From Cantharellus purpuraceus (taxonomy: Eukaryota; Basidiomycota; Agaricomycetes; Cantharellales; Hydnaceae): a stretch of DNA of 64,000 nt. A program made the translations under genes and the position numbers. This document shows, piece by piece, positions 1,483 through 29,924 of the stretch (positions are counted from its first letter, which is position 1; every line of letters starts with the position of its first letter). The notes under the pieces are model-generated. The model worked only from the letters and a program-made list of their open reading frames with translations, ran no database searches and was not told the DNA's origin. Location: contig JALBUN010000036.1 of NCBI GenBank assembly GCA_025174535.1, positions 34,856-98,855 of the forward strand, in the 5' to 3' direction.

Positions 1483-1826
1483 GTTCTATCCCTGACTCTG
1501 ATCCTATTATTCCACATCATTGTTTTATTATGAATTCACAGAGAAAAGTCACAAGTCTACCTGACCTCTGAAAAACCTCACTCCAACCCACTTTTTCTCC
1601 TTCAAATTGCAAGTCAAAACTTCCACTATTCTCAAATTCATTCTGAAATATTACAATCAAAATCAAAGTCATTTTTTTAGTTATACATCATGCTTCCTTT
1701 TTCCCTTCCCCTTGTCTACCTCAGCCTCTGTCTCTGACCTGTCTCTGACTCATCGTCACTCTCCACATCCAACACCCAATCCTTCTCATCCCCCATGTCT
1801 GAATCCTCATCTAGGGGGACCATGAA
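1483..1826 (+). other. Non-coding spacer of element A
   Basis: AT-rich sequence downstream of the chromodomain stop, homologous to 20914-21190 of element Y. The right end reads on the minus strand as the acidic C-terminus of the antisense accessory ORF, which resumes after W at 9577. I see no independent gene here. Confidence 0.6.
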
Positions 1827-2096
1827 TGTAAGTACCCAAGGTACTTAATTACCATAGTATATAAGTATAATTGATATATACAGCATTCTCTTAAGGAACA
1901 TTGTCCTCTTGGTAGATGTATGTGCCCATAGGGTGCATATGTATAGTTATTATGTAAGCCAGTGGACCCAGTATATGTGTGGATCCACTTATAGTAGATA
2001 GAACTTAGTTAACTACAACACTGTACAAACACATCACCCAACCAATATACTTGGTTGAGTTCTGTGCAATGGTATGAACTAAGACACCCATTTACA
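1827..2096 (+). repeat. 5' LTR of W
   Basis: 270 bp, TG...CA ends, partner of 9307-9576. It contains inverted repeats itself, for example AAGTACC-CAA-GGTACTT at 1830-1846 and AACCAA...TTGGTT near 2040-2056. Confidence 0.92.
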
Positions 2097-2963
2097 CTTT
2101 TTTGAACTTCCAAAGGAAGAATCAAGTGATTCTTTCTCATTATTGAAGTTTTCTAGTCAATACTAGAAAACCAGCTATTGCTGGTGTACAGATGTATATC
2201 AACCCCCCCAGTCGCTCATTTAAGTGAGCAACTAGTAGACTAACTTAGTTAGTCTACAAAGATAGAAGAAAAGAGTCATCATAATGATGACTCGCAGTAG
2301 AGTGAGTTGTGCTGGCAGCACCCAGGACATCATAAATGATGAATGGCAGCACATAGCCAGTAGCAGAAGCTCCCGTGAAGGGGAGCTAGACCCTAGAGAA
2401 GTCACAGGGACTTCTTGTAAGGAAGACTCTAGAAGAGAGTTGCCGCAATTGTGAGATCACACAGATGATCACACAATAGATCATCTGTCAAACAAGAACC
2501 CTTCATCAAGTGGTTCTTTGATTAGAGAAGAAAGGAGGAGACAGTCATTAACTGTCTCCAATGTTTCTAAAGGAAAGGAACATGCTCAATATATGAGCAT
2601 GTAGAAGTAGCAATACTTCTACTAGGGAATCATGCAGCACAGAGCAGCATGAAACCCACAGGTCAATTGCAAGATTGACCAAACAACTCATGCATAATCA
2701 ACATGAGATGAAGAGCATTAGTGAAGCTAGTGCTCAGGTAGCTAAGATGGCTGCTGAAGCAGGGCATGCTGCCACTACTATGGGGCAGCAAATAGCAGAG
2801 CTAGGAATGATGTTAAAATTGCTCCAAGAGAACTCTGAGCAATGCAAGTCATGTTGCCAAAGATCAGATTCTACAAGAATCTGAATCCAGAGAGTCTGGA
2901 TCTCCCCAGGGTGAGAGGATCCAACCGAATGATCAGTTAGACAGAGGAAATGAAATTCCCCTA
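2097..2963 (+). repeat. Leader of W: dense array of short hairpins
   Basis: Between 2107 and 2680 I find about 20 short inverted repeats, nearly end to end. Examples (stem/loop): 2107-2119 (5/3), 2119-2132 (5/4), 2149-2170 (9/4), 2171-2184 (5/4), 2214-2229 (5/6), 2235-2257 (10/3), 2273-2293 (10/1), 2309-2321 (5/3), 2368-2387 (7/6), 2461-2488 (10/8), 2537-2559 (9/5), 2581-2601 (8/5). A short ORF at 2675-2884 shows coiled-coil-like heptads but no recognised domain. A tRNA primer-binding site is not evident next to the LTR. Confidence 0.85.
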
Positions 2964-4347
2964 ATGGAGGGAATCAGAGACCCAGTAATCCCTGTGAGGC
3001 AAGGATTACTGATCCAGATTGAAGAGGAAACTCCTCAATCTATGGCAAAGGAGCTCAATCAAGAGATCGAGCTATGGAAATTACAAGAAGTTGAGGCTTC
3101 TCATAAACACAGGTTAGCCCTCAAATGGAAGGCTAAACATGCAGAGCAGGAGCTCAGCCAGCTGTTTAGAGAGCAGCGGCCCCAGCAAGAGCTCAATGTG
3201 GCTGTCGATTTAAACCAACAGTTGCAACATGCACTGAACAGTTATCAGTGTGTACAAGTGGTGGGCCTTTCAGGAGACACCCACCATGAGCAACAAGATA
3301 CCCCAATGGGTACCTCAAGAAGATGTTCCCCATAACAGGGAACAATCAGTGCCATTGACCCTAGAAGGTCAAGGCATACCAGATCAATTAGACACAATTG
3401 ATCCTATCAATGGTATTACTCACATGGTGCAAGTAGCCATAGTCAATAATAGAGATACAGACCCAGAGAAGTCTGTACTTGCCAAGGTGGGCATTAAAGT
3501 ATCACCTCCTGAGCAATATGCAGGAGGTGCAGATCTCAAAGAGTTTGAGATCTTTGTAGCAGGTATGCTACAATGGCTGAAGATGAATAACCTCCTAGGG
3601 CCATCAAGTACAAAGTTTCAACTATTGTACTTAGGCACTCGCCTTAAAGGCAAGGCCCAGGAATGGTTCTACAGGAATGTAGAACACTACAACAGGGCAG
3701 TCCAAGACTGGACCCTGGAAACTGCAATCCAAGAATTGCAGCATAGATTCCTACACACCCTGATGCATCATCATGCATCAGATAAATTTGACTCTGTAAT
3801 ACAGGGTCAAAGGACCATTCATGAATTAATGAACAACCTAGATAAGTATGCAGGTCACATGATAATGCCACCAGATGCATACACATACAGGAAGAGGTTT
3901 GTAACTGCAATGTGTGAACCTCTGAGATAAGAAGTCCTCAAGAAGGGCTTCAATGCTGAGTTTAGCAGTATCAAGCAGTTGTATGGAATGGCTCAAATGA
4001 TAGAGGAAGCAACATGATACCACCATGGTATGCAACACCCAGAGAACATGACTAATGCATCCTCCTCAACCCATAGACCAGTAGTCAATAGAACTACTGG
4101 TATGATGAATACAGGGAGTCGACCCATGCCCCATGGATGTGTGTATATGGCTCCCAACACATACTCACAACAAGTGAGTGCATCAAGGCTGGAACCCCAT
4201 AATGGAAGCTCTGGGTCCAATTCCAACAATTACCCCTTTAAGGGTAATTATCAATTGAAGCTACCAGCACATGTGAGTGGTGATCGATCAAACAACATTA
4301 CCAGTAACATTGTGTGCTACAAATGTGGCCAGACAGGTCACATGTGA
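2964..4347 (+). pseudogene. gag of W (capsid-like region and zinc knuckle), broken
   Basis: After a coiled-coil N-terminal part (2964-3335), the frame from 3250 carries a Retrotrans_gag-like domain (F...WLKMNNL, LKGKAQEWFYRNVEHY, LQHRFLHTLM). It stops at 3928 and resumes in frame as KGFNAEFSSIKQLYGM. A CCHC knuckle CYKCGQTGHM lies near 4315-4360, with a TGA between its His and last Cys. Gag would form the particle and bind the RNA. The coding sequence is itself made of inverted repeats, e.g. 2983-3011 (stem 9), 3503-3529 (stem 9, loop 9), 3531-3553 (stem 10, loop 3), 3554-3573 (stem 7). Confidence 0.75.
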
Positions 4348-4789
4348 CCCAGCTGCCCCAAACTAAAGGGCAATGTTAAGCTCAGCTGTGGTCTGAAAGA
4401 ACATGTCCTCACACATAGTGGAGGACAATGTAGATGGATGATCCCAAGGACCATCTAGAGGAAAAAATACCAGCTATAGAAGTAGCTGATGAATGGGATG
4501 AGGAAGTTGCCCCATACAAATGGGACGACCAAGATGATGCCCCCAAAAAGGAGGCTACACCAATGTATTGCTCTAATGCAATACAAATTTGACCCAATGA
4601 TCAAATTCCACCGAAACACACCTATGCAGTGCATTTCTGTAGTGCAACAAGATTCCCAACAAGCAGGGAATCACAACAGCTACATATAGCTGCTGTCAGC
4701 ATTGACAGATCAGCCAAACCTATGTATAATCATAGGAGCCGATAGAAGTCAACAGTGTGACCTGATAGACTGTACATAGACAATAAAAC

Positions 4790-5095
4790 AATCTCTGGGT
4801 ATTGGGAGATTGGTGGAACACTTGCTCACTGTCTATTAGACAGTGGGAGCAAGGGGATAATGATATCCCCTGAATTCACATGCATGACAGGTATGAAAAC
4901 CTTCATGCTAGAGCAACCCATCACACTGCAATTAGCATGCATTGGGAGCAGGGGTACCATAAATTATGATACTCACACTACCATTTGCGCTAAACTCCAA
5001 CATAAGCTCAACAATGGGGTTTACTCTATTTGAGCTTAACCACAGGTATATGCCTAGAATAGGCATGCCCATGAACAATGACAACAAGTTCAAGG
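4790..5095 (+). pseudogene. Retropepsin remnant of W
   Basis: A frame around 4818-5000 reads LAHCLLDSGSKGIMISPEF, with the aspartic-protease DSG signature, followed by MTGMKTF and a hydrophobic strand. This is the usual position and motif of a gypsy retropepsin. The flanking frame has stops. Perfect inverted repeats lie across the active-site region (4827-4845, stem 8, loop 3; 4853-4870, stem 7, loop 4). Confidence 0.6.
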
Positions 5096-5099
5096 GTGT

Positions 5100-5515
5100 C
5101 AAATGATTCACACAGCAGGCTCAAATGAACCTGCTAGCAGCGCACAATGTGATTATAGAAAGTCATGTCGTTCAGACATTTCATGCCAATAAGAAATGTC
5201 AGGAAGGTTCAACCTTCCAGAGGTGACAAAGTCTACCTCTCAACAAAAAACTTGACTCTACCTAAGGGTAGGACCAGCAAACTAGTGCCCAAGTATATTG
5301 GGCCCTATAAAGTAATCGAAGCCCATAATAAAGCTTCAATGGTGACACTGGAACTGCCACCAGAACTGACTAGTAGGCACATTATGCCTACATTCCATGT
5401 CAGTCTCATTCAACCGTATGTGCTGAATGATGAGATGAGATTCCCAAAATGGGAAGCAAAGTCATTTTATGACTTTGGGAACAATGACAAGCAGGAGTGG
5501 CTCATTGATGGATAA
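5100..5515 (+). pseudogene. Integrase C-terminal (GPY/F-type) domain remnant of W
   Basis: The block GDKVYLSTKNLTLPKGR, LVPKYIGPYKVIEAHN and RHIMPTFHVSLIQPY is the C-terminal domain of chromovirus integrase. It follows the protease by only ~100 bp, so reverse transcriptase, RNase H and integrase core have been deleted. Usable frame runs from about 5110; the ATG at 5165 is internal. Hairpins continue, e.g. 5175-5200 (stem 8) and 5202-5218 (stem 8, loop 1). Confidence 0.85.
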
Positions 5516-6388
5516 GCAATAAAGAAATTGAATTTCAAGTTCTATAGATGTTGGGAGATGTCACCTGGGAACCTTACACATTGTAAGGACCTAGAAGCTC
5601 TAGACGATTATTTGGAGCTTTGAGGGGTGACTCAAGTGCAAGAACTACCTCATAGATGGTAGTTCTCAGAGAGACAGAGCTGCAAAGATCTAATGGGGCT
5701 CAAGGGGGAGAAGTGGACCTACCAATAAAGGTAGCTCCTAGTGGGATGCAACAAAGAGCTACCATCAATGACAGTAGCTCAATGAGGGGAGGAGGGACTA
5801 CCTCAATTAATGGTAGTTCCTAGATAAGGATAGAGCTACCATAACAACAGGCAGCTCAATGGTAGAAAAAACTTCTCCCATAGGGGGCAGTTCACCATCA
5901 TGCTACTTATAGTAGCATGAAAGGGGTAAGTGATAATTAATTGCATTACACCCATGTGACATAGTCACTGGAAAAATTCTCAATAAAGAATTTTTGAGCT
6001 CAGCCATAAAAGGCTAGCAGTGTTTCTTTGAACCACCACAACCCCCCCTCCATCAAAATGTTATCCCTCAGAAGGGAGGTGATGGATGCTCAAGATGAGC
6101 ATCCAATGGAAGTTGAACAAACTTCCACAGTGGCAGTACCTGCAATGAGTGCTGCAGATATGATCAGAGGTCATCAAGATGAGATGACCTGGAAAATCAG
6201 CGGATGGCATGGTGGTGCTGCCATCCATCACCCTCCATCACCCTCATGGGTGCAACAAGTGCAACACATATGTATCACACTTAATCAAGGCCCAAAATGG
6301 AGGCCAACTATATCTTTCCACCACTTTGGTAGAAAGAGCATTAAGAGTTGCATGGCTGTGACTTATACATGACATTGAAGATGATGTC
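5516..6388 (+). other. W internal region with repeated hairpins, no clear gene
   Basis: Between the integrase remnant and the next ORF are many hairpins built around variants of a GTAGCTC/GGTAGTTC theme (e.g. 5641-5666, stem 9, loop 8). An open frame at 6028-6372 (MNHHNPPSIKMLS...) has no recognised domain. Confidence 0.5.
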
Positions 6389-6781
6389 ATGACACCTTAT
6401 CGTGAAGACTATGATAAGATGTACAAAGATAACTTGGACCTGTTTGTGCAGGTCCAAGAACTCAAAGGACTTCTCAACAATGAGAAGTCTGAAGTAACTT
6501 GTCTCAGAGACAAGTTAAAAACACTGAAGGAGGCTGCTGATAGAGCATCTTCTACATTCAAAACCAAGCTCACGACAGTGCACTTGGCCCCAGTAGCATT
6601 GCTATCATGTGCTACAGCAGGCAAATCATTGCCTGCCATTATGCCATCACAACCTGTGGCTTCATCGTCACAGGAAATGATTGATCTCACCAAAGAGAAT
6701 GATCTCCTGAGCAAATTGCCTTGGGTCAACCCTCGAGAGTCAAGATTGGGACAACACCAATCCAATCTGGGAGGGATATGA
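6389..6781 (+). CDS. Coiled-coil ORF in W, unknown function
   Basis: A 130-residue open frame. Residues 10-60 look like a coiled coil (LDLFVQVQELKGLLNNEKSE, LRDKLKTLKEAADRAS), followed by an Ala/Ser/Pro-rich tail. The frame seems to continue in broken form to about 7210 (AEEAQHMNYCKCWDN-like reading, WFDICDMVSVHLWN). I do not recognise the family. It may be an accessory ORF carried by this non-autonomous element. Confidence 0.35.
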   Translation: MTPYREDYDKMYKDNLDLFVQVQELKGLLNNEKSEVTCLRDKLKTLKEAADRASSTFKTKLTTVHLAPVALLSCATAGKSLPAIMPSQPVASSSQEMIDLTKENDLLSKLPWVNPRESRLGQHQSNLGGI

Positions 6782-7210
6782 CCATGATCATGGTCTCCTC
6801 CTGGCTAGCATTCCCAAGGGTGCTAAGCAACTGGGCAAACTTTTTGAGTTTGCCCTATCCAAAATCAAAGCTGAGATTGATCAGCTTTGAAAAGAATATA
6901 TGGCTAGTGATGCCAGCTGTACCTTAAAAGACCCAGCATAGAAGACACTGGAAGAAGCCCAGCATATGAATTATTGCAAATGCTGGGACAATTTCAGGCA
7001 TGCTCTCAAGCATGCAAATGTGGGGAAATCATTCTCCAAATGGGCACCATGGTTCATGACTGCAGCTGACCCTCCCAGAGCAGTCACTGGCCACCTGCTG
7101 TGACCTCTGGGCAAGTCTGCCCCTATCAGGGCAGACTGGTTTGACATCTGCGATATGGTGTCAGTTCACTTATGGAATAGATCCTATAAGCCTGCATGCA
7201 ACGGTCCTAG

Positions 7211-8344
7211 CAAACAGACAGTGTGTAATGCAGTTGTTCAGCACACCAAAGAACAATCGGGTCGAGGGGTAGGGGCAGCACTGAGTAACAGAAAGTGGAA
7301 TAGTGCTCTGTGGTTGGAGGAGGATGGGGAGCGAAAAGGACAGCCCAGATGGTTGATCGTGCTCTGTGACTGGATGACAATGGAGAGCCCGGTTGGGAGG
7401 TATGTGAAAGCTGGTTTCAGGAGAAGCAACCTCTCAGTGGTGGAGGGAAATCTGATCATTGAACCAAGGTGCTTTGTCTCAGTGTAGAGATGATGGATTG
7501 TGATATAGAGATGATATAGAGTGTAGAGCGTAGACTTAGAGCGTGGACTTTGACTTTAGAGTGTTGGCTGAAAACTTGTTAATTGATCTCAAAGGCAAAA
7601 ACTAGCGCCCTTTTATATACAAATCCCCAGGGCACAACGACACAATATGAGGAGCAAATGATGCGATATGATGCAAGAAATGCTGATCAAGCCAGCTGAT
7701 GAAGCGAGTGAAGTTGAACTACTAATGGGGAAATCATGGAGAAATGAAGCGACAGATAGGGGTAATCTTTGTAAGAATAGGGGGTGATGAGTAATAAAAG
7801 AACCAGAAATAGAACAAGGATGAGTAAGTCGTGTATGAATGAATTAAAAGATGAAACAGGGGTGAGTCATATAAAAGAACAATAGAAACATCCACCAATA
7901 CCATCTTCCCTACGGCTCCGAAGGTAAATTGACCCTGAGTCACATGAGGACTTCAGTCAGCATCCACAACAAATACTCCTTATTGTCTTAGTGATACGTC
8001 TCCATATGGTATCCTGTTCCAAGGATATTCGGTCCCTTTGCCTGACACGATGTAACCTGAGTTGGATTGAAGTGGGAGGATAGGTCAGTGATGGCGACTG
8101 AAATTCTACCTCACATTCAACTCTTCTATCTGTGTTATGATATAGAGGCAAAATGCCAAGGAATGTATATGGTTCAATGGAATTGTGAAAGAATATAGGA
8201 TCACCAATGACATAAGAGAGACATGGTGGGGATCTTGGACGTTGAAAGAGTTTGGGAAGTATTTTGACATGTGGAGGTGGCTTAACATGCCTGTGGAGCT
8301 CAGCGTATTTTTGATAGTCGTCTGTGTCCAGAGACCAGTGTGAC
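7211..8344 (-). mobile_element. Fragment of a Z-like gypsy element inserted in W (LTR plus 3' ORF)
   Basis: The W hairpin pattern stops at about 7210 and returns after about 8345. In between lies sequence rich in GATAGGGG-like motifs as in Z's LTR. A minus-strand ORF at 8352-7957 matches the 3' ORF of Z (12647-12210): both share a YVIGDP/HYIGDP block, PYTF and a W..R....R terminus. The LTR-like part probably ends near 7946 (GAGTCACA read on plus). I could not find a matching target duplication, so ends are approximate. Confidence 0.55.
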
Positions 8345-9231
8345 ATAGACACTGGTGGAGTTGGACTGTCAGAGTGTTTCGATGTACGTCCTCAATGCAT
8401 CCTGGCTTGTCAATGGACACTCTGGAGTTTGTATCGCTCCATAAAAAGGCATTGGCCATGCCATTTGCAGAATGGACTGTACCAATGTGCAGAGTCATCA
8501 AAAGAATGACTCTGCTGGCTCGCGCTGATAACACACGTCTTATCATCACTCTACCAACCACACTGGTAGACACACTTGCCCTCATACAGGGGTGGCAAGT
8601 AAACCCTAATGGGGTCCCCCTGGCCATCTGACAGGAGTCAGATGGTACTATGAACTTGTCCAATGTGGACATCTGGATGTGGCTGCAAAAGGCCACTCCC
8701 AAGAAGGGTTCTTCTGCATTCAAGAAGAACCTCTGGACTATGTTCCAGAATCCCAGCCACTGGGAATTATTGACCAGTGGCCAAAAGTTCTCACCAACTC
8801 TTGGTGACACCTTTTGCACTTCAGTCACTGGAGTGTATGATTGGGGGAATTGCTCCCCTGAAGAACATACTGAATTAGAGCTTGCACTCTGGTTTGGGCA
8901 ATTGGGAGGCATCACCCTCAATCGTGCTGCTATATTAGAGGAGTTTGCTAAACACATTGCCTCTGGAGCAGCTTTTAACCAGCCCACTAGGGTTGGTAAG
9001 CAAAAGCAGGAGACTCAGGGAGTCTCCCAAGCAGCTCATAAGGCTGCTAAATGCTCTCTTGCTAAGCATTTAGGTCACGATCAACTTAATTGTGAACTCA
9101 ATCAGGATGCTGTAGCAATTGCATCCTCATCCATTCAAGTGGATGAGGATACCACAACCACATTGGGGATGACTGAGAGCCATCCTCCTCTGGAACCATA
9201 TGAACAAGACAACCATATGGACACTGGCTAG
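8345..9231 (+). pseudogene. 3' accessory ORF of W, unknown function, broken
   Basis: Frame from about 8353 (FRCTSSMHPGLSMDTLEF...) to a TGA at 8629, then on in the same frame from 8632 (ESDGTMNLSNVDIWMWLQKA...) to 9231. The protein has conserved-looking Trp/Phe-rich segments (SAFKKNLWTMFQNPSHW, VYDWGNCSPEEHTELELALW) but no domain I can name. The 3' end contains inverted repeats such as 8707-8731 (stem 9, loop 7) and 9123-9150 (stem 10, loop 8). Confidence 0.45.
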
Positions 9232-9306
9232 TCAGAACAGCTTCATAAGGAGCTGGATGATTAAGAATTACTGAATGAGAATGTGTCTCATTCAAAAAGG
9301 AGAGGG

Positions 9307-9576
9307 TGTAAGTACCCAAGGTACTTACTTACTATAGTATATAAGTATAATTGATATATGCAGCATTCCCTTAAGGAATGTTGTCCTCTTGATAGATGTA
9401 TGCACCTATAGGGTGCATATGTATAGTTATTATGTAAGCCAGTGGACCCAGTATATGTGTGGGTCCACTTATAGTAGATAGAACTTAGTTAACTACCACA
9501 CTGTACAAACACATCACCCAACCAATATACTTAGTTGAGTCCTGTGCAACAATGTGAACTAAGACACCCATTTACA
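9307..9576 (+). repeat. 3' LTR of W
   Basis: 270 bp, TG...CA ends, preceded by the purine tract AAAAAGGAGAGGG and followed by the target duplicate ATGAA (9577-9581). Its hairpins are often more perfect than in the 5' LTR, e.g. TATGCACC...GGTGCATA and GTGGACCC...GGGTCCAC. Confidence 0.92.
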
Positions 9577-10662
9577 ATGAATTTCTGCAGTTGATGCAAC
9601 TCAGCAGTCCATTGACCCTCCAGAACCTCCTTCCATTTCATCGTCTTGACCAAATCCACTAACAACCCCTCTATTCACTGGAGATGCTCTGACTGAAGGT
9701 TAATCAGCTGGATAAGCTGGCCCACAGTACTGTTGGGCATGAAGACATGCCTCATACCTGCACCAGTCATTGCTCCCTCTGATCCAACACTGCTACCTCC
9801 AGCTGCCACAGCACCCATTGCTATCTGCTGACTTTTGGTCAGACAACCTTCTGATTCTTTCTCTGCCCCTCCTTGTACCACTGGTCAGGGCTTGGCACTC
9901 TGACTTCAGAGATTGAACTTGCCATCAATCCTACACCCTCCTTTCCAACCCCAACAATGATCACAAGACCAAAGTCAGTGAGTCAGACCAGTGGGGCATA
10001 TACACTCCACACCCACATCATGGCACAAGTTGCATATTACACCAGGTCTGCTGAATGGCTCTGTTAGAGCCAGAGGGTGGTCTGCTCCTTTTTGACATGG
10101 CCTCCAAGTTTCTCTCTCCTCCTCCTTGTCCTACTGCTCTGCTGTAGCCTTCTCCATCTCACACTTATGAAGCTGGATTGCTGACCTAGCGACATACACC
10201 TCCTTCTTATGAGTTGCTAATACACAATCCTCTGCCTTGTGCCATATGACCCTCTGATCTGCCTCCCACTTCTCTGTATCAGCACTCAGGTATGCCTTCA
10301 ACAAGAAGACCATGACCTTGAGATTCTTCTTGGTAGTAGCAGCATATAGCTCTGTCCATTTGTGAGCTTCAACCACAGCTACCCAGGCCATCTCCTTGTA
10401 ACAATTTGAGGCTGGGTCAGGCTCCATATCTGTCCCAACATCCACACCCACCTCAGGCTCTGCATTTGTGTCAAGCTCCATGTCCACATTGGGATCCACC
10501 TTCACTTCCACCTTCTCCACCTCTGCTGCATCATCCTCTTCAGCTGCACCCACTGCAAACAATGGTCATGGTTGCAAACAAACCGGCAAGTCTACTGGTG
10601 GGGTAGATGTCAGATGGGTCAACTCCATCCATGTGACCAAGATAATGGTGACCTTGAAGGTC
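9577..10662 (-). pseudogene. Antisense Zn2Cys6/coiled-coil accessory ORF of element A, decayed
   Basis: The minus-strand reading is homologous to the ORF at 22758-21076 in Y. The N-terminal part is lost at the X1 insertion. Surviving frames (10562-10131 and 9881-9675) keep the acidic region, the Ala/Lys helix and the Ser/Gly-rich tail. Between them the six cysteines of the C-X2-C-X6-C-X12-C-X2-C-X6-C cluster survive despite stops around them. The TGA that follows the KP motif is at the same place as in Y. Confidence 0.7.
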
Positions 10663-19119: not shown

Positions 19120-20913
19120 GGTCCCTCCGATCTGGTAGACATCATAACAGACCACAAGAACTTGGAATACTTCTCCACAACGAAACTGCTCACTCGGAGA
19201 CAGGTCCGATGGTCCAAGTACCTATCTCAGTTCAACCTCATTATCTGTTTCCATCCTGGTTGACTCTGAGCAAAGCCTGACGTGTTAACTAGACGATGGG
19301 ACGTCTACCCTAAAGAGGGAAATAGCAACTATGCCACTGTAAACCCCCACAACTTTCATCCTGTGTTTACTAACGAGCAGCTGGCATCGTCCCTACGAGC
19401 ATCCACCCTCATGACTCCCACCCTCTGAGCTGTCACCATTATGGACATCGACCAACTCCGCTCCGACATCCACTCATCACTCCGATCTGATCCTGTTGCG
19501 GTTAAACACTTGGACAACCCTTCCGATCTGAAATGGTCACTTGACCCCGAAGGACACCTCCAACACAATGACCGGATATACATCCCCGACACCAACGGCC
19601 TCCGACTCCAAGTTTTGCAGTATTATCATGATCACCCGATCTCCGGCCACTTTGGGCAAAATCGCACACAAGGATTAATCCGATGAGACTACATATGGCC
19701 AAAAATGTGGGAATACATTCAACACTACTGTAACTCCTGCACCACATGTATGCGCTCAAAATCGCAAAGGCACAAACCCTACGGAACGCTCAAACAACTT
19801 CCGATCCCAGAGCAACCATGGAACTCCATCTCCATGGATTTCATAGAGAAGCTCCCCCCATCACTCGGATATGACACCATACTCGTGATTGTCGACAGGT
19901 TCACCAAACAGTTCCTATTCATTCTGACGCATGACACCATCACCTCCGCCTCACTAGCTAAATTGTTCATTCTCCACATATTCTCTAAACACGGAGTCCC
20001 ATCACATGTCACGTCCGATCGGGGTTCGGAGTTTGTGTCCTCCTTCTTCCGCACATTAGGAAAGGCTCTCGACATGAAGCTCCATTTTACCTCCAGATAC
20101 CACCCTGAAGGAGACGGACAAATGGAACGAATGAATCAGTCCCTGGAACAATATCTCCAAATCTATTGTAACTATCAATAAGACAACTGGGCTGGTCTAC
20201 TTCCGATCGCAGAGTTTGCCTACAACAACACTCCAAATGCGACTACCGGCATCTCTCCGTTCTTTGCTAATAAAGGCTACCATCCGAACATCTCTGTCCA
20301 CCCCGAGAAGGAACTTGCCTCCACCAAAGCCCACCAATTCATAACCGACCTCGATCAACTACACCAACATCTCCGAGAGACCATCTCCGATGCTCAGAAA
20401 CAATATCAAGTCTCCGCAGACCGACACCGCATTCCGGCTCTGGACCTGCAAATCGGAGACAAAGTATTCGTTAAGGCTGAACACTTCCGGACCACCCATC
20501 CATCAAAGAAACTCTCCGAGAAATACTTAGGTCCTTATGAGGTCATTGCTCGCACGGGCAGCAGGTCTTTCACCCTCTGCCTCCCAGACCACTTCCGAGC
20601 AGTTCATCCAGTCTTCCATATATCAATGCTCGAACCTGCTACTATGAACGAGATCTCCAGTCGCATGCAACCCCCACCTCCCCCGATCATCATTGAAGGA
20701 GACAATGAATATGAGATCTCGGAGATCCTGGACTTGAAGATCGACCGTCGATACAAGTGCAAGCTCCAGTACTTAGTCAAATGGACTGGATACGAAGGCA
20801 CTGATGAAGAGTCTTCATGGATCTCCGCATCCGAACTCGATCACGCATCCGAATCCATCTCCGATTTTCACTCTGCTTATCCAGACAAACCTGGCCCTCT
20901 TTTGAATCTTTAA
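19120..20913 (+). pseudogene. RNase H (end), integrase and chromodomain of Y, broken
   Basis: RNase H end: [10 protein letters not shown]...[15 protein letters not shown]. Integrase: H2C2 finger (HDHPISGHFGQNRTQGLI...YCNSCTTC), core with SMDFIEKLPPS, SDRGSEFVSSFFRTLG and HPEGDG-MERMNQSLEQ (all catalytic positions visible), GPY domain (LGPYEVIARTGSRSFTL), chromodomain (EYEISEILDLKIDRRYKCKL, VKWTGYEGTDEESSW) ending at a TAA at 20911. Stops at 19261, 19426, 19684 and 20179 inactivate it. It keeps far more CpG than copy A. Confidence 0.87.
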
Positions 20914-21075
20914 GTTCGATTACTAATGCTAATTCTATTATTTTGCATCACCACTTTATTACAAGTCAAGGGAAATTACCAGCCTGCTCAAAAAAAAAAA
21001 AAAAAACTCCAAAGGAATATCACTCCACCTCATTCTTTCTCCATTCTGAAATTTATAATCATTTTCATCCTTATC
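20914..21075 (+). other. Spacer between chromodomain and antisense ORF in Y
   Basis: AT-rich non-coding sequence with an A homopolymer of about 18 at 20990-21007. The two genes of Y point towards each other across it. Nothing else is recognisable. Confidence 0.5.
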
Positions 21076-22758
21076 TTATACATCACATTTCCTTTTCCCC
21101 TTTTCCTTATCTACCTCAGGCTCCATCTCCGACTCCTCATCACTCTCTACATCCAACACCCAATCCTTCTCATCTCCCATGTCCGAATCCTCATCCAACG
21201 GGGCCATGAACTTCTGCAACCGACGTAACTCGGCTGTCCGACGACCCTCCAGAACCTCCTTCCATTTCATCGTCCTCACCAAGTCTACTAACAACCCCTC
21301 CGTCCGCCGAAGGTGCTCCAACTGCAGGTTAACAAGCCTGATAAGCTGGCCCACGGTGCTATTGGGCGCAGAGATGCGCCCTGTACCTGCACCGGTCGTT
21401 GCCCCTTCCGACCCGACGCCACTACCCCCAGCTGCTACAGCACCCGTCTCAGTCCGCCTCTTTTTGGTCAGACGACCCTCCGATTCCTTCTCTGCCCCTC
21501 CTTGTACCACTAGTCAAGGCTTGATGCTCCGACTCCAGGGATCAAACTTTCCATTGACCCTACACCCTCCTTTCTGACCCCGACAATGATCGCAGGACCG
21601 AAGGTGGCGAGTTGGGCCGGTAGGCCACACGCACTCCACACCCACATCATGACATAAGTTGCAAGTTATGCCAGGTCCGCCAAATGGCTCCGTTGCAGCC
21701 AGAGCCTTGGGTGGTCTGCCCCTCCTCACTGCGGCCTCCAAGCATTCCCTCTCCTCCTCCTTGTCCTGCTGTTCTGCTGCCGCCTTCTCCATCTCACGCT
21801 TGTGAAGCTGGATCGCTGACCTCGCGACACGCAGCTCCTTCTTATGGGTCGCCAACACGCGACTCTCTGCCTTGCACCATATGACCCTCCGGTCCGCCTC
21901 CCGCTTCTCTGTATCAGCACTCGGGTAGGCCTTCAGTGAAAAGATCATGACGTCGAGGTTCTTCTTGGTGGTAGCGGCATAGAGCTCCGCTCTTTTGCGA
22001 GCCTCGACCGCAGCTACCCAAGCCATCTCCTTGTAAGAATTCGAAGTAGGATCCAGCTCCGCATCCGTCCCAACATCCACACCTGCGTCAGGCTCCGCAT
22101 TTGTGTCGAGCTCCATATTGGCATTGGGATCCGCTTCCACCTCCGCCCTCTCCACCTCCACCGCATCGTCTTCCTCAGCTGCCCCCGACTCAAATAAGGG
22201 CCGTGCCCGCGGACGTAATGGCGAGTCCTCCGCAGTGACCGTCCTTGAACGAGTCGCCTCTGTCCGTGTAACGGAGATGATGGTGACTTCCGGGGTCCCT
22301 GGCCGTATGGGCACGCTTGGACTTCCTGGGTGGCTGGTCTTCCCTGCCCCGGTCACCTCCTCCTCTACCTCCATGGCCGCCTCTAACTCGTGCGCCTGCT
22401 CCTCCACTTCCTTCAGTCTCGCAGCCTCCATCGCTGTCGCAAGTTCCTTCACCTTGCGGGCCCTCTCTGCCTTCGCTTCCTCCTCTTTCCTTCTCCGTTC
22501 CGTTTTCGCTGCTTCTTTCCATCGTTCCTCCTCCTCCTCCTTCCATCTCCATTCCGCCTCCTCCTCCTCCTTCCACCTCCGTTCTGCCTCCTCCTCCTTC
22601 CGTCTCCGTTCCACCTCCTCCTCCTCCTTCTGTCTCCGTTCTGCCTCCTCCTCCTCCTTCCGTCTCCATTCTGCTTCCTCCTCCTCTTTCCGTTTCTGCT
22701 CCTCTTCCTCTTCCTTCTGTCAGGCCAAGAGCAACTGCTCCAGCTCGGCCACACTCAT
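21076..22758 (-). CDS. Antisense coiled-coil protein with Zn2Cys6 cluster (element Y)
   Basis: Starts MSVAELEQLLLA at 22758; a TGA follows at once, then QKEEEE and a long E/K/R-rich segment of repeated RRKEEEEAE-type units (charged coiled coil or single helix). Next come an acidic region, an Ala/Lys helix (KEMAWVAAVEARKRAELYAA) and CNLCHDVGVEC...CDHCRGQKGGC. This fits C-X2-C-X6-C-X12-C-X2-C-X6-C, the fungal Gal4-type Zn2Cys6 spacing. A TGA after KP (21514-21516) is followed in the same frame by a Gly/Ser-rich and acidic tail to 21076. The family is a DNA-binding type; its role in the retrotransposon is unknown. It is encoded opposite to gag-pol and reads away from the 3' LTR, so that LTR could drive it. 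Confidence 0.7.
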
Positions 22759-22920
22759 GCTTGCCAAAGGGTTTGACATTGTTGAGGATAAGACCTCAAT
22801 CATGCCCCTCCTTTTATATGTCTCCAGACCCCCAGTATAACTCCGACTGTGCCCAATCGTCTCACCTATTCAATCCACGGACATGAGGCCTCAGGGGCTC
22901 AGCCTTAAATGGAGAGATAC

Positions 22921-23434
22921 TGTTATGACTATATTCATTAATGCCCAGATCCCCGTCCGATCCCCTCAGATCCCCACGCATATGAAATCTATACTCCATT
23001 TGGAAACCGCTACGTCTCCATTTTCCTGTCCGATTGTCACCGCCGATTCCACCCATCCGTCTCCAGTTCCGATTGATGCATCAGCATCACCATAGGAACC
23101 CAGACATCCGTCCCCATCAGACTCGGACATACTCATGTAAGGCCGTCAGCCTCGGAGACCCATCACTGGAGTAATTATTATTAGATTTCAAATATGTATT
23201 TAAGTTGCCAACTGGGGACTCCATTCCCCAGTTTGAATATCGAATCACGCCTAGCTCCTAAGTCTGATCCTAACTCTGTAAGTCATACTCCGTCTCCGAA
23301 ATCTCGGACACCGGTATTAGTGAGGGCGCAGCACATAAGCTGAAGCCAAGTCCGTTCCAACCCCCACAACGTGCTCCGACTCCAACCCAACCTCCAACCC
23401 AAACTCCAACCCCAATCGGACCTAGTGCGTAACA
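22921..23434 (+). repeat. 3' LTR of Y
   Basis: 514 bp, partner of 14117-14630, followed by the target duplicate GGGAT at 23435-23439. The upstream sequence ATGGAGAGATAC is the likely, rather weak, polypurine tract. Confidence 0.93.
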
Positions 23435-23439
23435 GGGAT

Positions 23440-24870
23440 ACAAGTTCTGTTGTTCTCCAGCGACCAGGGTGACCTGTAATGTGAGTATCATGGTGTGCCC
23501 TTACAATGTCATGGCGCAATTTGGGTCAAGAGGGACATATACCTTGCCACAATAGAGGACAAGTCCATTCTCCTCGGTCCATTCCTGTCCTCGTAAATTC
23601 CAAGAGGGACCAAGTTCCTTAAGAGCCTTCACAACCTTTTCATCTCTGTTGGTGCAGTTCCGCACATGTTCCAGGAATATGTCTCCTTCTCCTGTGATCA
23701 TTTGAGCTCCTGGCCCTGGATAGGTGGATGTCACATCGATGTGGAACAGCTCAGGGCCAAGAAAAACCTGGTTCTGATTATCTTCCTCCCCCCACTTATG
23801 ATCTACACGTTGTGAGAGGGCATCAGGTTTGGCTGAATGTCATCCAGGACGGTGGATCAGTTCAAAGTCAAAACAAGAAAGGTATAGTGACCAGCGAGCT
23901 TATCGACGATTGAGATTCTGAGCTGTACAGAAATATATGAGGTTTTGATGGTCATTAAGGATTTCAATCTTGTATTTGGTCCCTTCCAAGATGTGGCGCC
24001 ATTCTTCTAGTCCATGGATGACTGAGAGCAATTCCTTATCATGGATGGCATAGTTGCGCTCTGCATCTGAAAGGCTCTTGGATACAAAACCTACCAGCCT
24101 CCATTTCTCATTGTCACAGAGTTGAGATAGAACAGCACCTGTTGCATATGCTGAAGCATCTGTCTCTAGTCGAAAATGCTTGGTTTGATCTGGGAGGACA
24201 AGGATTGGAGTTGACGTGACAAGCTGCTTGAGTTTATCAAAGGCTTCTTGTTCTGGGCCATCGGGTATCCAGGACCACTGTGTATCTGCCTTTGTTAACC
24301 GATTCAGAGGCTTTGCAATATGTGAGAAGTCCTCAATGAAGCGACGGTAGAAATTGATGAAACCCAAGAAGGATTTGACTTCTGTCACATTGTGTGGTGT
24401 GGGCCAGTCTCTGACTCCAGCCACCTTAACTGGGTCCATAGCTACCTGTCCCTGTGAGAGAATCAATCCAAGATAATCTACCTTCTGTTGCATGAAAAGG
24501 CATTTATCTGGTTTGAGGTACAGGTAGTTGGCCTGAAGAATTTCAAGGACAGATTGCACGATTGCGCAGTGTTGTTCTAGGGATTCAGTGAAAATGAGGA
24601 TGTTGTCCATGAACACTACCATAGTGCCATCATCAATGAGGTCCTTGAAAATGTCATTCATCATCGTCTGAAAGGTTGCTGGGCTGTTTGTGAGACCAAA
24701 GAACATGACCAGGGGTTCAAATAGACCACAATTGGTTTGAAAGGCTGCCTTCCACTCATCGCCCTCTTTCATTGTTATATCCCCATCAGATGTCAAGCTT
24801 GGTAAAGTACTTGGCATTGGCTGCGGCAATTTTATTCATGATGTCCAGTACCAGGGGTAGTGGGTAGGCG
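23440..24870 (-). pseudogene. RT (second part), RNase H and integrase N-terminus of Z, broken
   Basis: Reading downwards from 24870: YPLPLVLDIMNKIAAANAKY, KLDI then a stop, WKAAFQTNCGLFEPLVMFFG, and VVFMDNILIFTES at the RT active site, where the usual Y-x-D-D is F-M-D-N. RNase H (LETDASAYATGAVLSQL, HDKELLSVIHGLEEWRHILE) ends in a stop near 23900. The integrase N-terminal part follows (DVTSTYPGPGAQMITGEGD, HDIVRAHHDTHITGHPGRW) and is cut by Y inside the H2C2 finger. Confidence 0.85.
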
Positions 24871-24875
24871 TTCTT

Positions 24876-25641
24876 TGTTATTTGAATAGTGTAAATAATT
24901 GCTTTGCTGGAGTGTAGTGATGAGCAGAAGTCGAATAGAAAGTGGAGCAGTGGTGGGAACTGGATGTATGCGTAGTCGAATTGAAGATATACTTGAGTAG
25001 TATCTTCCTACGAAGTTTGATGGGATTTGGTGTGATCTTCGTCTAGATATTGACAATTTGAGCAGGGATCAGGAGCAGATGACTCGAACAAGAGTAAATG
25101 CTTGATAGAAAAATAGCCAGTTATTGTATGGCTTCGTAATTCGAGATTCGAGTTGGATATGCAATATTCTAATAGAATATGCAAAAGCTAATAGAAATAC
25201 GCGTTCGTTCTGGAGATATTCCAGATACGAATAGATTCAGACACACAGACAGAAACAGGTGAGAGGAAATTCTCTAGTCTGTTCAAGTGCATTACAGATG
25301 TGATTTATATATGATAATAAGTCCTATGAATGAGTGAAGTCATTCGTAAATGTCCTGAGTCAATGATGGGATGGATGATGAGATGATGATGGGGGAAGTG
25401 TCCATGATGATGAAATGATGAAAATAAAAGCGAAAATAATGTCCAGGAAGTTCTGGAACTCACAGGGGCTTCTCCTGTTCCCTATTCCATTCCTGTAACC
25501 GTCCTCCTTTACCCCCTTTGTCCCTCAAAACCTCCTGAGCCTCCTATATGCTCCTGTTCCCCCCCTGTCCCCTGTAATCCCCCTCTCCTCTCCCTTCTCC
25601 CCAGAAGTCCGGCAGCTAGATGTCCGGCAGCTGGAACAACA
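24876..25641. mobile_element. Solo LTR V inside RT of Z
   Basis: 766 bp, TGTTATTTGAATAG...GGAACAACA, flanked by TTCTT at 24871-24875 and 25642-25646. The Z reading frame KLNDITIKN...YPLPL continues across it. It has no genes; the right half is rich in GATGATGA and then C-rich. It looks like a solo LTR of a further family not otherwise present in the window. Confidence 0.85.
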
Positions 25642-25646
25642 TTCTT

Positions 25647-26560
25647 GATTGTGATATCATTCAGCTTGCGGTAGTCTTGCACAAAACAAAGATTGCCATC
25701 CTTCTTCTTCACAAAAAAGACAGGAGATGCCATGGGTGACTTGGAAGGACGTATACGATGATTCCATAGGTTCTCCTCAAGGAATGCGTCCAACTCCTTC
25801 TGCTCATTTGGGGACATTGGATAGACCTTTGTGCTGAAGGGTTGCACTCCTGGAGTGAGTTCAATAGCGTGGTCCCACAGTTTTCGAGGTGGAAGTTGGT
25901 CAAAGGACTCCTTTGCAAAAACATCCTTAAATCCCCAGTACGCCTTTGGGACAATCTCCTCAAAGGTTTTGACTGGAGTAGATTCTGCAGTCTTCTGTGT
26001 GAGCCGTTGAGAAACTGTTGAACCAGCATAGATATTCTCCAAGTCTTCTTCTACAAATATAACAAACGTTCAGTCTCCCTCGTATTGGGGTTGCTTGTGT
26101 GAGTTCTTGCCATTTGAAGGAGTTGTGCCAAGCAAATGCTCTTTATGTTCTGGTACTTCTCCACATGAATCAGGGCAGCGAGTCATCTGTACCTTTCCTG
26201 TACACCAGTCTACCTCTGGGTTGTGCTTCACGAGCCAGGTGTGCCCAACAATTATGCCAAAGGTTCCCAGGCTTGTGACTGAAAATGTGGCATGTTCGGT
26301 ATGGGTCCCATATGTGCAGATGAGATTGACTTCTTCCTTGATTGAACCTGCTTCATTTGGGGTCCCATCAATATTATAAACAGGTATGGCACATGGTAGA
26401 GGGCACGTTCAAAGTTTCTCTGCTTTGACATATTCTGCATCAATGAACATTCCTGTAGCACCACTATCAAGGAGTGCATCTACTGCTAGAGGGTATCCAG
26501 TGTCTACCAAGTGGATTTTCATGGGAATTCTTGTACATCAACGGATGTCTGCAGATCAAA
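25647..26560 (-). pseudogene. Protease and start of RT of Z, broken
   Basis: Downwards: a retropepsin reading with VDALLDSGATGMFID (intact DSG triad) and TFGIIVGHTWLVKHNPEVDW; then RT N-terminus KAYWGFKDVFAKESFDQLPP, PGVQPFSTKVYPMSPNEQKE, ASPVFFVKKKDGNLCFVQDY and RKLNDITIKN, ended by the V insertion. Stops near 26409 and 26071 break the frame. Confidence 0.8.
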
Positions 26561-26734
26561 GGTAGAGACGAGGAGGGTCATCATGTTTAGCTGGAAGTTG
26601 AGAAGGGGTTTCAGGCATGGCTGTTTTGGTTTCAGTCTGATGGACAAGGGGGTGTGCATGTAACATATCGCTTGTGAGCCCTACAGTACATTATTCAAGA
26701 ACTGAAAACCAATTTGTCAGGCAGGGCATGCTCT

Positions 26735-27811
26735 TCACTGCTGACTGGCCTGAAAATCCTGCTTCTCCTCTTGCTTTGGAATTACTGCCTTCTGCGCTTC
26801 TTCCTTGGCCTTCAGTGCAGCTGCTACTGACTCTGATATCATGCCGGCAATTGCTGTTTGTGTGAGATCAGCTCGGATATGTTCCTTGCATGGTTCAGGG
26901 CATGCTGGGGATATATGGCCACGCTTTCCACAGTTATAGCACATCCGAGTCTCAATGCGATGGCAGTTGGAGTCAATATCCATAGGTGCAGCACCATTAG
27001 AGATTGCCAAGGTAGTTGGTACAGAGATGACCGGAGTGCTGTGAGGGCGGGATGGGGTAGAGCGAGCAGGAGTGAGGGAAGTCTGAGCACATCTCACTTC
27101 TAGAAGACGACGGTGGTTGCAGTCAATTTGGCAGGCCACTTCCTTCTATGCCTTGAGATCAGATGGGAGGGATGGCTGTGCATGGATCTTGTCAAGAATC
27201 ATTGCAGGGAGCCCTTGGGCATAGGCATCTTCCAGTGCTGCATCATTAAACCCAGTCCTTCCTGCTAGTATCTCAAACTGTGCCATGTATTCATTTGCTG
27301 ACATGCCAGGTGTCATCCTAAGATTGTGTAACTTTGTTCATGCTGTTTGGGAGCGGTCAGGGTCCCCAAAAGCATTCTCCACCTGCTTAATGAATTCCTC
27401 CAAGGTGGAGAGTGGTGAGGTCCTGCCAATGACTGCCTGTGTCTCATTGTGCACCCATACTTCAGCAGAACCTCCCATCATAAAAGAGAGGGCATAGAGG
27501 ATCTTGGTCCGCTCATCTGGGAAAGATGTAGGCTGGACTGCAATGGCAAGCCTGATAGAGAGAATGAAACCTTCCATCTCTGCACGATCTCCATTGAATT
27601 TGGCTGGTTCAGCTGCCCTTATTGGGCGAATGGATGACAATGCAGGAGGAGGTGTGGGAAATGAGGTGGTCTGAGAGATGGTCTGTGCTGCAGCGATGGC
27701 AGCAGCAGTGGCAGCATCCACTAGGTTGTTCTGGACATTGGTGAACTGGCTCTGGAGGTGCTGGTTCTGGAGTTGCAGCTGCTGGAGCTGCTGTGCCTGG
27801 GTGTTGAGCAA
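26735..27811 (-). pseudogene. gag of Z, broken
   Basis: Starts MLNTQAQQLQQLQLQNQHLQ (Gln-rich coiled coil), then PAKFNGDRAEMEGFILSIRL, a capsid core (ALSFMMGGSAEVWVHNETQA, FIKQVENAFGDPDRSQTA), a stop at 27338, a resumed LHNLRMTPGMSANEYMAQFE, and a CCHC knuckle CYNCGKRGHISPAC near 26940-26900. The linker between protein and knuckle is broken by a stop at 27140. Confidence 0.8.
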
Positions 27812-27945
27812 TGCTCACAGAAAGCCACCACTTTCACCTAGAGTGTCCCAATAGGCTTCAGGGAGCTGATTGGTCATGGTATCGGTGAAGAGGTTAATAG
27901 GGAAAGTGTTATGAGGTGTGGGGTCATCTTGTGAGCTTGATCTTC

Positions 27946-28317
27946 TGTGAGGGCAATGCTGATGATGAGGCCACAACAACAAGATACTCAATAGATGAGA
28001 GCTGATAAGAGATAATGCCAGCTGGTACAGCAGATATCCTCAGTCTATACAGCTGTTTCTGATAAATACATGGGACTTACCTGGTACAGCAGATATCCTC
28101 AGAGATCAAGCTGAGGGGATCACACTGCACCAAGGCAAGTCTTTATACTAAATGATGGAGACGGATAGGAGAACCAAGATAGGGGAATAATAGAGAGGAA
28201 GGATAGGGGAAGTGATAGGGGCAATGAAATAGGGGAGATGCACCCTGACAGGCTGTGCTGATAGGGGCGTCAAGAGAAAATACTAAAAATAGAATATGAC
28301 TCATTTGAACCCTGACA
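27946..28317 (-). repeat. 5' LTR of Z
   Basis: 372 bp, partner of 11785-12156, followed on plus by the target duplicate TCCTC (28318-28322). I see only about five differences between the two LTRs. Confidence 0.92.
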
Positions 28318-28332
28318 TCCTCTAGCCTCTAA

Positions 28333-28981
28333 GACACTTGTTCAGAAATACAACAAATATGTATATACAACCTATTTTCCTCAAATTTTACACAACACAC
28401 TTAGATTAAAACTTATTTTCATATTTCAACATGATTCTCAAATTTTACACAACACACTTAGATTAAAACTTATTTTTATATTTCAACATGATTCTCAAAT
28501 TTTACACAATATACTAGATTAAAAACATATTTTGATATTTTGGTATAATTCTCAAAAATAATTGTTTTTTCCCCATTTAGTGGTGGCAACTCTCTTGAGG
28601 GAACATCCAAATATCATTGATTCTTTCTTATACAATACTTGTAACATAATTTGAACTATCTTTAATCCCCACCTGGTATTTGTATATCTAAGATGCTTGT
28701 TTGGAAGGATGCTGTTATACAATATTCTGATGTATACAAGATGTACATCAGAATATATGAGATATCCATGTAAATGATTATGTTCATCTCATTTAAATAT
28801 CTTATCTTTTAAAGTTTATTAAAATATAGAATATATGTGTATATTTATGAAAATTTCACACATCCAAAATCTTTTAAGATATCTAAATTGTAACTCCCTG
28901 GCTTTATGTATCATTGAAATTCTGATGTATATGAGATATACATCAGAATATTGTATACTGACATGATTCCAAACAAGTGTC
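28333..28981. mobile_element. MITE (TAA target, PIF/Harbinger-like) inside X1
   Basis: Terminal inverted repeats GACACTTGTT and AACAAGTGTC, flanked by TAA (28330-28332, 28982-28984). The intact X2 LTR reads CTCTAAGTGC here, giving the empty site. A second terminal-repeat-like sequence (GATGCTTGTTTGGAAGGATG) begins at 28691 and pairs over ~48 bp with the right end, so a 291-bp unit (28691-28981) may be the core. No ORF of note. The 3-bp TWA duplication points to PIF/Harbinger, by family knowledge. Confidence 0.8.
28380..28550. repeat. Three 57-bp tandem repeats in the MITE
   Basis: CTCAAATTTTACACAA starts at 28380, 28437 and 28494, giving three units of 57 bp. The first two are nearly identical and the third is diverged. 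Very AT-rich. Confidence 0.85.
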
Positions 28982-29259
28982 TAAGTGCATTCCCCTCTTT
29001 TTGGAATATCTGGACCCCTAAGCGTCCATGAACCCTAGACTCTGGAAGTCTTATTCATTCCCTACTGCTAAGAAATGTATTACCTTTATGTGTATCGTCT
29101 GCATTGACCATTACAATGGATTGTAACCAAAGTACAAATGTTAAATCATTTCTGGAGTTGTGCTGCAGTAGGATTTGATATTCTTCTCAGCTGTTCATTC
29201 ACAGAATTGTGGTGATTTAGAGTTTGCCCTAACACCATAATTTTGCGGGTTCTAAAACA

Positions 29260-29860: not shown

Positions 29861-29924
29861 GGTACAGAACCCAGCAGTAGATTCACATTAAAAATGGAAT
29901 GTTTTCAGTTCTTGGAGCTATGCT

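Follow-up and report, generated by a model that had tools for sequence, protein, structure and literature searches.

Organization of the element

The window, by which we mean the whole 64,000-nucleotide stretch of Cantharellus purpuraceus DNA analysed here, carries W, which is an internally deleted member of a high-copy Ty3/Gypsy-type family. The features of W are listed below; all except the target-site duplication, the whole element and the insert are given on the forward strand.

1822-1826 and 9577-9581: left and right target-site duplication, ATGAA, 5 bp, read off the sequence
1827-9576: W as a whole, a deleted Ty3/Gypsy-type LTR retrotransposon copy
1827-2096 (+): 5' LTR, TG...CA, 270 bp, placed by alignment among copies
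2097-2506 (+): leader, 410 bp, the densest part of W, with 7 stems of at least 7 bp (17 per kb), 4 of these at least 9
2148-2171 (+): example hairpin with a stem of 10 bp and a loop of 4; among 39 copy rows aligned here, 92% have it perfect
2507-4434 (+): gag region, in several frames in this decayed copy, 21 stems of at least 7 bp; its sub-parts are N-terminal ORF pieces, capsid (3250-3930) and zinc knuckle (4030-4347)
4077-4101 (+): hairpin with a stem of 9 bp and a loop of 7; in copy L016 the corresponding hairpin was altered by a template-switch event
4435-5164 (+): protease part and a deletion junction near 4984
5165-5515 (+): integrase C-terminal part with a Tf2-1-like SH3 domain (PF24626, 56.1 bits, cut-off 30)
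5516-7152 (+): 3' region with ORFs 6028-6372 and 6389-6781, 19 stems of at least 7 bp, 10 of at least 9
7157-8347: foreign insert of about 1.19 kb (originally placed at 7211-8344), dispersed elsewhere and nearly hairpin-free
8348-9306 (+): 3' region after the insert, with ORFs 8374-8631 and 8650-9231, 11 stems of at least 7 bp
9123-9150 (+): example hairpin inside an ORF, 11-bp stem, loop 6
9307-9576 (+): 3' LTR

The two LTRs differ at 18 of 270 positions, and the 5' LTR itself holds 3 stems of at least 7 bp (11.1 per kb). In Pfam searches the gag region scored 25.4 bits with Ty3_capsid, under the cut-off of 29.1, and 22.3 with zf-CCHC, over the cut-off of 20.8; Ty3_capsid (PF19259) is carried by many among the 102 protein relatives listed. 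The ORFs at 5516-7152 gave zero Pfam matches over cut-off, and the part at 8348-9306 has one homologue (61% identity, 43% of the query covered). At the junction near 4984 the copies L015, L018 and L025 are longer by about 3.4, 1.7 and 2.9 kb, respectively, and the extra sequence of L015 includes RT, RNase H and integrase. The pol order PR-RT-RH-IN, absent as such from W, is found in L015 as separate ORF pieces, with Pfam scores of 22.0 for RVP_2 (cut-off 20.3), 27.6 for RVT_1 (just under its cut-off of 29.6), 54.1 for RT_RNaseH_2 and 32.5 for Integrase_H2C2. The insert unit, or a part of at least 150 bp, is present in 13 of the 20 loci retrieved. Rfam models gave zero matches at gathering score across 1500-9900, and among RT relatives none was confirmed in a viral contig.

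Across W and L015, the family resembles Ty3/Gypsy elements (Metaviridae) in its TG...CA LTRs, 5-bp duplication, capsid and zinc knuckle, and in having PR, RT, RNase H and integrase H2C2 and SH3-like domains in the usual order. It differs in carrying about 11 hairpins per kb throughout the element. W differs, too, in its long 3' region with ORFs and possibly in the primer site: a check of 2097-2126 after the 5' LTR for a TGG start or an LTR complement of at least 7 bases found neither.

Hairpin density

The original prediction was that W is built from small hairpins, coding parts included, and the counts bear this out. Scored as non-overlapping perfect stems with loops of 0-11 in W minus the insert (two parts joined, 6555 bp), hairpins number 105, 77, 52, 32 and 13 for stems of at least 6, 7, 8, 9 and 10 bp. 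At the same thresholds, 200 dinucleotide shuffles gave means of 18.4, 5.1, 1.4, 0.35 and 0.09, with maxima of 29, 13, 7, 4 and 2. W is also far above codon-preserving shuffles, a comparison proposed at the outset: its 13 ORF pieces (5178 bp) hold 52, 37 and 19 hairpins with stems of at least 7, 8 and 9 bp, against 7.8, 2.7 and 0.96. The twelve stems singled out by eye (2149, 2235, 2273, 2461, 2537, 2983, 3503, 3531, 5641, 8707, 9123 and 9272) are all perfect, 9-11 bp long and in place, the one given as 2149 beginning at 2148. The stretch 2107-2680 is dense as described, but the figure of about 20 inverted repeats was slightly high, a strict count giving 16, 14 and 11 hairpins with stems of at least 5, 6 and 7 bp (shuffles, 5.1, 1.4 and 0.4).

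Density is even, at 9.6-17 per kb across the eight regions tested. Typical hairpins have stems of about 7-11 bp, with a sharp drop in length beyond 10-11 bp, and loops of about 3-9. Loop lengths peak at 3-7 with few of 0-2, in line with what physical foldback demands. No loop motif was seen by eye across 119 hairpins or in a 3-mer tally made without a control. Loops are A-rich. Local folding energy, with pairs spanning at most 36 nt, has a z-score of about -7 in W and -6.8 in the RT region of L015, compared with -0.65 in control DNA and +0.94 in the insert. The pattern does end at the insert, which has 2 hairpins with stems of at least 6 bp and 0 at each threshold from 7 to 10. The remaining window DNA lies near shuffle level, with one small exception at 20001-30000, where 3 stems of at least 9 bp (shuffle maximum 1) and two long inverted repeats, near 28.7-28.9 kb, are found.

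Conservation across the family

The hairpin pattern is common to other family copies, including the RT-RNase H-integrase region missing from W, and hairpins are just as abundant in the RT region of fuller copies as in the family at large. Family DNA (122 kb) carries 11.4 hairpins per kb and the other DNA compared 1.04; the family mask included a small dispersed repeat (L015 7200-7525), and dropping this leaves 116,437 bp with 11.33 hairpins per kb. These counts leave out L001-L008, which are shorter stretches around first matches, and stems in the insert. Units of the insert type, 17,085 bp in total, hold 2 stems of at least 7 bp. In the suggested comparison with related gypsy elements, two Gypsy-type RT stretches (47-49% amino-acid identity) had no clear hairpin excess, with 1 and 2 stems of at least 7 bp against 0.85 and 0.95 in shuffles. 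Hairpin positions, which were to be checked in other copies, are kept in older relatives: of the mappable W hairpins of at least 8 bp, 21 of 23 keep at least 75% of their pairs in L033, 8 of 9 in L030 and 8 of 8 in L028. Hairpin potential at the protein level, scored for 14 proteins from 20 retrieved among the 102 listed, was weak and uninformative, eight W and L015 pieces giving 35 non-overlapping sites against about 23 when shuffled, relatives 88 against 68, and pieces of L054, which belongs to a family poor in hairpins, 4 and 7 against 4.0 and 4.8.

The original prediction also proposed separating compensatory from one-sided arm changes. We kept 54 rows for copy alignment, dropping rows with at most 300 aligned bases and both L018 rows (near-duplicates of L019), and repeated the copy comparisons with CpG columns masked. 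Among near copies (90% identical), stem pairs carry 53 double and 754 single changes; CpG-flagged columns, which make up 17% of cells, account for 44 and 398 of these, respectively. Because so many lie at CpG-decay sites, near-copy double changes are no evidence, and covariation among these copies was rejected as a sign of selection; once CpG columns are masked, double changes are hardly above expectation (9 vs 5.1). In four older relatives, masked, 9 double changes were found where 2.8 were expected, and all 9 are Watson-Crick, while slid-partner controls gave 1-6 changes with 0-2 Watson-Crick; this full agreement counts for less than it seems to, because two independent transitions at a pair always yield a Watson-Crick pair.

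Slower evolution of stems

Non-CpG divergence is lower in stems than outside in four of four relatives when stems are defined in W, and in three of three when they are defined in the relative, although in L029 the two are nearly equal (.084 vs.095). Third codon positions, CpG columns again masked, follow the same direction. With W-defined stems, 14 of 162 are changed in stems and 138 of 606 outside (p = 3e-5); with relative-defined stems, 17 of 146 and 139 of 641 (p = 0.006); and with the union of both sets, 30 of 238 and 122 of 523 (p = 0.0006). This codon test rests on only three older relatives from one genome, and p values, here and below, are uncorrected for tree or number of tests.

In near copies, counted in columns with a depth of at least 15, variants present in at least three copies show 24 transitions and 0 transversions in stems against 74 and 24 in loops plus outside (p = 0.004). 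For variants in exactly two copies (27:4 vs 69:19, p = 0.43) a transversion deficit is not shown, and single-copy variants give 120:49 vs 238:128 (p = 0.2). Near-copy stems are distinct from loops, but their difference from outside DNA is weak (p 0.02-0.23 at three or more copies).

Origin of the hairpins

Chance, low complexity or an assembly artefact has a negligible likelihood: nothing was found in its favour, two kinds of shuffle are exceeded so that the counts already refute it, and the hairpins occur at many loci on many contigs with stem sequences that differ among themselves. A purely mutational origin, in which hairpins are repeatedly created and perfected as the nascent strand folds back in reverse transcription or replication, with no selection in their favour, seems unlikely, even though the mechanism is documented for RNA genes, where template switching is described as making and maintaining hairpins (PMC8794818). 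The counterpart of 4077-4101 in L016 resembles those RNA hairpins, its loop being inverted (as read by eye) and its 9-bp stem extended in one step to 28 bp, a single mismatch included; judged from sequence, this private change is a clear template-switch mutation. Such an origin would also fit the presence of some compensatory pairs, the rough symmetry of G.U and A.C described below, and the indifference of the hairpins to codon register (16/10/26 in ORF hairpins, the register least served by synonymous change not being depleted). However, across the 122 kb of family DNA L016 provides the only clear event, and a scan for loop inversions gave 3 of 9306, with 0 of 8178 in reversed and 2 of 10152 in complement controls, and thus no excess; this rarity is weak evidence, because loop inversions are reported to be rare in RNA genes too (PMC8794818). 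In 43 private clusters of at least three changes, the sole form in which stem-perfecting multi-base changes were examined, stems were shortened in 12 and lengthened in 7. The sharp fall in stem length and the lack of transversions common to three or more copies also speak against it, and unbiased arm-to-arm copying does not predict slower stem evolution, which in this family goes beyond restored pairing and sets it apart from the RNA-gene hairpins as described in that report. Because stems and their third codon positions change more slowly and widely shared transversions are zero in stems, selection for structure is, of the two causes originally put forward, better supported than template switching.

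If selection is acting, the next consideration is the strand that folds. Selection confined to the sense RNA genome, by analogy with the genome-scale ordered RNA structure (GORS) of some RNA viruses, would account for the strong local folding and the signature at third codon positions, and the genomic RNA of an LTR retrotransposon normally holds the whole element; we nevertheless consider it rather unlikely. Such selection should favour G.U, but G.U and A.C states at stem pairs are about equal (shared, 11 vs 14, and 11:11 and 7:7 under stricter stem definitions; in further counts, 41 vs 33 and 16 vs 15), and the two strands have similar folding z-scores. In W, mismatches inside long stems are more often A.C (14) than G.U (3), as they are when W and the L015 stretch are scored together under looser rules (29 vs 11). 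A single-stranded DNA fold, selected either in the minus-strand cDNA or on the two strands alike, is a possible but tentative alternative. An A.C on the plus strand is a G.T on the minus strand, so the looser-rule surplus (control DNA, 15:11) and the strand-symmetric tolerance of G.U and A.C would suit it. Yet the A.C surplus is small beside a composition expectation of about 1.3:1, control DNA leans likewise under another rule (9:4), and other copies lean to A.C less or not at all (6:3, 8:5, 5:3, 8:4, 4:0 and 1:2). Inner-edge mismatches also fit decayed C-G closing pairs, and the minus-strand z is not lower.

On the whole, we think it probable that selection preserves the family hairpins, acting on the element while it is single-stranded in its life cycle. 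The hairpins are dense, widely spread and conserved in position, their stems change more slowly, third codon positions included, and widely shared stem transversions are zero. On this view the whole sequence, from LTRs and leader through gag and pol to the 3' ORFs, would have become a closely packed series of small local hairpins, chiefly from point mutations as raw material, with an occasional template switch creating or lengthening a stem in one step, as in L016. The packaged RNA and/or single-stranded cDNA would likely be kept compact and locally self-paired, which may give protection against nucleases, annealing to other copies or RNA silencing, while short stems would stay below the length that triggers dsRNA processing.

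Relation to known systems and significance

The family is like GORS in having structure across the whole coding genome and folding energy far below shuffles. It differs in being a retrotransposon, in the dominance of short perfect local stems, in the absence of a G.U preference and in being about equal on both strands. Packaging, persistence and escape from RNA sensing are the roles named for the ordered structure of RNA viruses. Yeast Ty3, of the same superfamily as W, has a genomic RNA for which SHAPE-MaP indicates a folded core and 5'-end palindromes for dimer formation (PMC11381356); the abstract of that study reports no element-wide hairpin tiling, the comparison being by description. The view that no similar element has been described stands uncontradicted, as no hairpin-tiled LTR retrotransposon appears among the literature matches listed, from searches partly aimed at the question.

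The copies also carry a warning: covariation among decaying repeats can mislead, because CpG decay on both arms gives seemingly compensatory pairs. It is conceivable, though we consider it doubtful, that this retrotransposon lineage has evolved a third information layer across all its genes, made of short hairpins in unbroken succession. Selection might act on that layer in single strands, either of both polarities or of the minus-strand cDNA, making each nucleic-acid stage of the life cycle fold locally. If true, this would parallel at the DNA level what persistent viruses show in their ordered RNA genomes, with template-switch mutation as a partial source. With its many natural copies, the family allows selection for small hairpins over coding sequence to be quantified relative to CpG decay and template switching, and it lets one ask directly whether retroelement cDNA, besides RNA, is selected to fold and whether folding aids escape from silencing.

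Results

The LTR retrotransposon copy W is densely set with small hairpins, in coding sequence as well as elsewhere. Its features in the window are as follows.

1827-9576: W, flanked by a 5-bp target duplication (ATGAA), with LTRs of 270 bp each, between which 18 of the 270 sites differ
gag: zinc knuckle and a capsid match (capsid below the Pfam cut-off)
integrase end: SH3-like
5516-7152 and 8348-9306: long, ORF-bearing 3' region
7157-8347: foreign insert, a 1.19-kb dispersed unit, copies of which, complete or partial, occur at 13 of 20 compared loci

A scripted count of perfect, non-overlapping stems with loops of 0-11 bases found 108, 78, 53, 32 and 13 stems of at least 6, 7, 8, 9 and 10 bp in W, against 22.6, 6.4, 2.2, 0.4 and 0.1 in ten shuffles. 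The excess was unchanged when W without the insert was compared with 200 shuffles, and in 13 ORF pieces it far exceeded codon-preserving shuffles (52 observed versus 7.8 for stems of at least 7 bp; 19 versus 0.96 for at least 9 bp). All 12 stems listed in the original prediction are present, and the pattern ends at the insert, as had been proposed, the hairpin count there being about that of chance. The remainder of the window is also mostly near chance, apart from 20001-30000, where 3 stems of at least 9 bp were found against a shuffle maximum of 1.

A small A+T-rich dispersed stretch with 13-14 bp inverted repeats was observed at window 28722-28949, in loci L011, L030, L032 and L038, and at 7217-7453 of the fuller copy L015, within its RT-region stretch.

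RT, RNase H and the integrase core are missing from W; L015 carries all three, spread over separate ORF pieces, at a position equivalent to W 4984. Directly downstream of the 5' LTR (2097-2126), neither a TGG-type primer site nor an LTR complement of at least 7 bases was seen. ORF 8650-9231 has one homologue among the protein-database matches listed. The family is large: the genome (40.15 Mb, 50 contigs) holds at least 41 matches to the W leader (best 40 of 404 candidates scored) and at least 150 to gag (best 150 of 198 scored). Two copies, L018 on contig C12 and L019 on contig C2, share 99.9% identity across 3772 aligned positions and probably represent one segmental duplication.

Across loci L009-L055 and the window, family DNA (122,012 bp) contained 1387 stems of at least 7 bp, or 11.4 per kb (11.33 with the small dispersed repeat inside L015 excluded), and 577 of at least 9 bp. 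The corresponding counts were 205 and 38 in other DNA (196,433 bp) and 2 and 0 in insert-type units (17,085 bp). Density was 9.6-17 per kb in eight tested regions of the element and 10.9-13.5 in the RT-region stretches of L015, L018 and L025. Older copies (L030, L033 and a minus-strand piece of L028), about 80-85% identical to W where aligned, are also hairpin-rich. Two relatives in the same genome (RT protein identity 49% and 47%) had 1 stem of at least 7 bp in a 1500-bp stretch and 2 in one of 1000 bp (shuffles, 0.85 and 0.95). Because both are near shuffle level, the trait seems to belong to the W lineage, on the basis of these two relatives.

Discussion

The evolution of the stems fits selection on pairing superimposed on coding. 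With CpG columns masked, divergence was lower in stems than outside in all four older relatives, and again in three of three comparisons using relative-defined stems.

Divergence from W in older relatives (W-defined stems; stems, outside)
L033:.049,.106
L030:.108,.149
L028:.067,.162
L029:.084,.095

At third codon positions (four ORF pieces; three older relatives, one genome), divergence was.086,.116 or.126 in stems versus.228,.217 or.233 outside, depending on the sequence used to define stems. Double changes in stem pairs of the four relatives numbered 9 against 2.8 expected, all of them Watson-Crick; because any two transitions at a pair yield a Watson-Crick pair again, the count carries more weight than the Watson-Crick fraction.

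At L028 1-920 (minus strand), a 12-bp ORF hairpin lies where W 9058-9088 has a different one; the two differ by single-base changes dispersed over both arms, of which many were judged by eye to be synonymous.

Among copies about 90% identical, apparent stem compensation was rejected as evidence, since CpG decay in both arms imitates it: 44 of 53 double and 398 of 754 single changes at stem pairs fell in CpG-flagged columns. CpG/TpG/CpA interchange is heavy at sites shared by many copies (e.g., columns 2459-2490 and 4562-4587), as if host CpG methylation acted in repeats, and creates false covariation in stems. With flagged columns masked, single-copy variants were even over stems, loops and outside. 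By p values that treat related rows as independent and are corrected neither for phylogeny nor for multiple testing, variants in at least three copies were fewer in stems (34/780) than in loops (28/246; p = 0.0002), not clearly below outside (56/992; p = 0.23, or 0.12 and 0.02 under stricter stem definitions), and showed transition:transversion counts of 24:0 in stems versus 74:24 elsewhere (p = 0.004). Exactly-two-copy variants had no transversion deficit in stems (27:4 versus 69:19).

Arm-to-arm copying alone does not fit these results, as such copying would keep the total rate and would not spare transversions. Template switching itself does occur, as one clear case shows: a private mutation at L016:6778-6840 (W 4020-4110), in which the loop of the hairpin at W 4077-4101 is inverted and the stem extended to 28 bp with one mismatch. 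However, loop inversions are generally no more frequent than in controls.

As for the strand that folds, G.U and A.C states in stem pairs are about balanced, which we read as against folding of sense RNA only. Internal A.C:G.U mismatches were 14:3 in W and 29:11 for W and the L015 stretch together (expected about 1.3:1); control DNA gave 15:11, or 9:4 under another rule. A.C on the plus strand means G.T on the minus strand, and we take the excess as at most a faint hint that minus-strand cDNA or both strands fold.

The nearest systems found are genome-scale ordered RNA structure (PMC3950689), template-switch hairpins (PMC8794818) and the Ty3 RNA map (PMC11381356); the literature matches listed, which covered few subscription papers and preprints, included no hairpin-tiled LTR retrotransposon. 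For the W family, the hairpins may serve in compaction, protection or escape from silencing.
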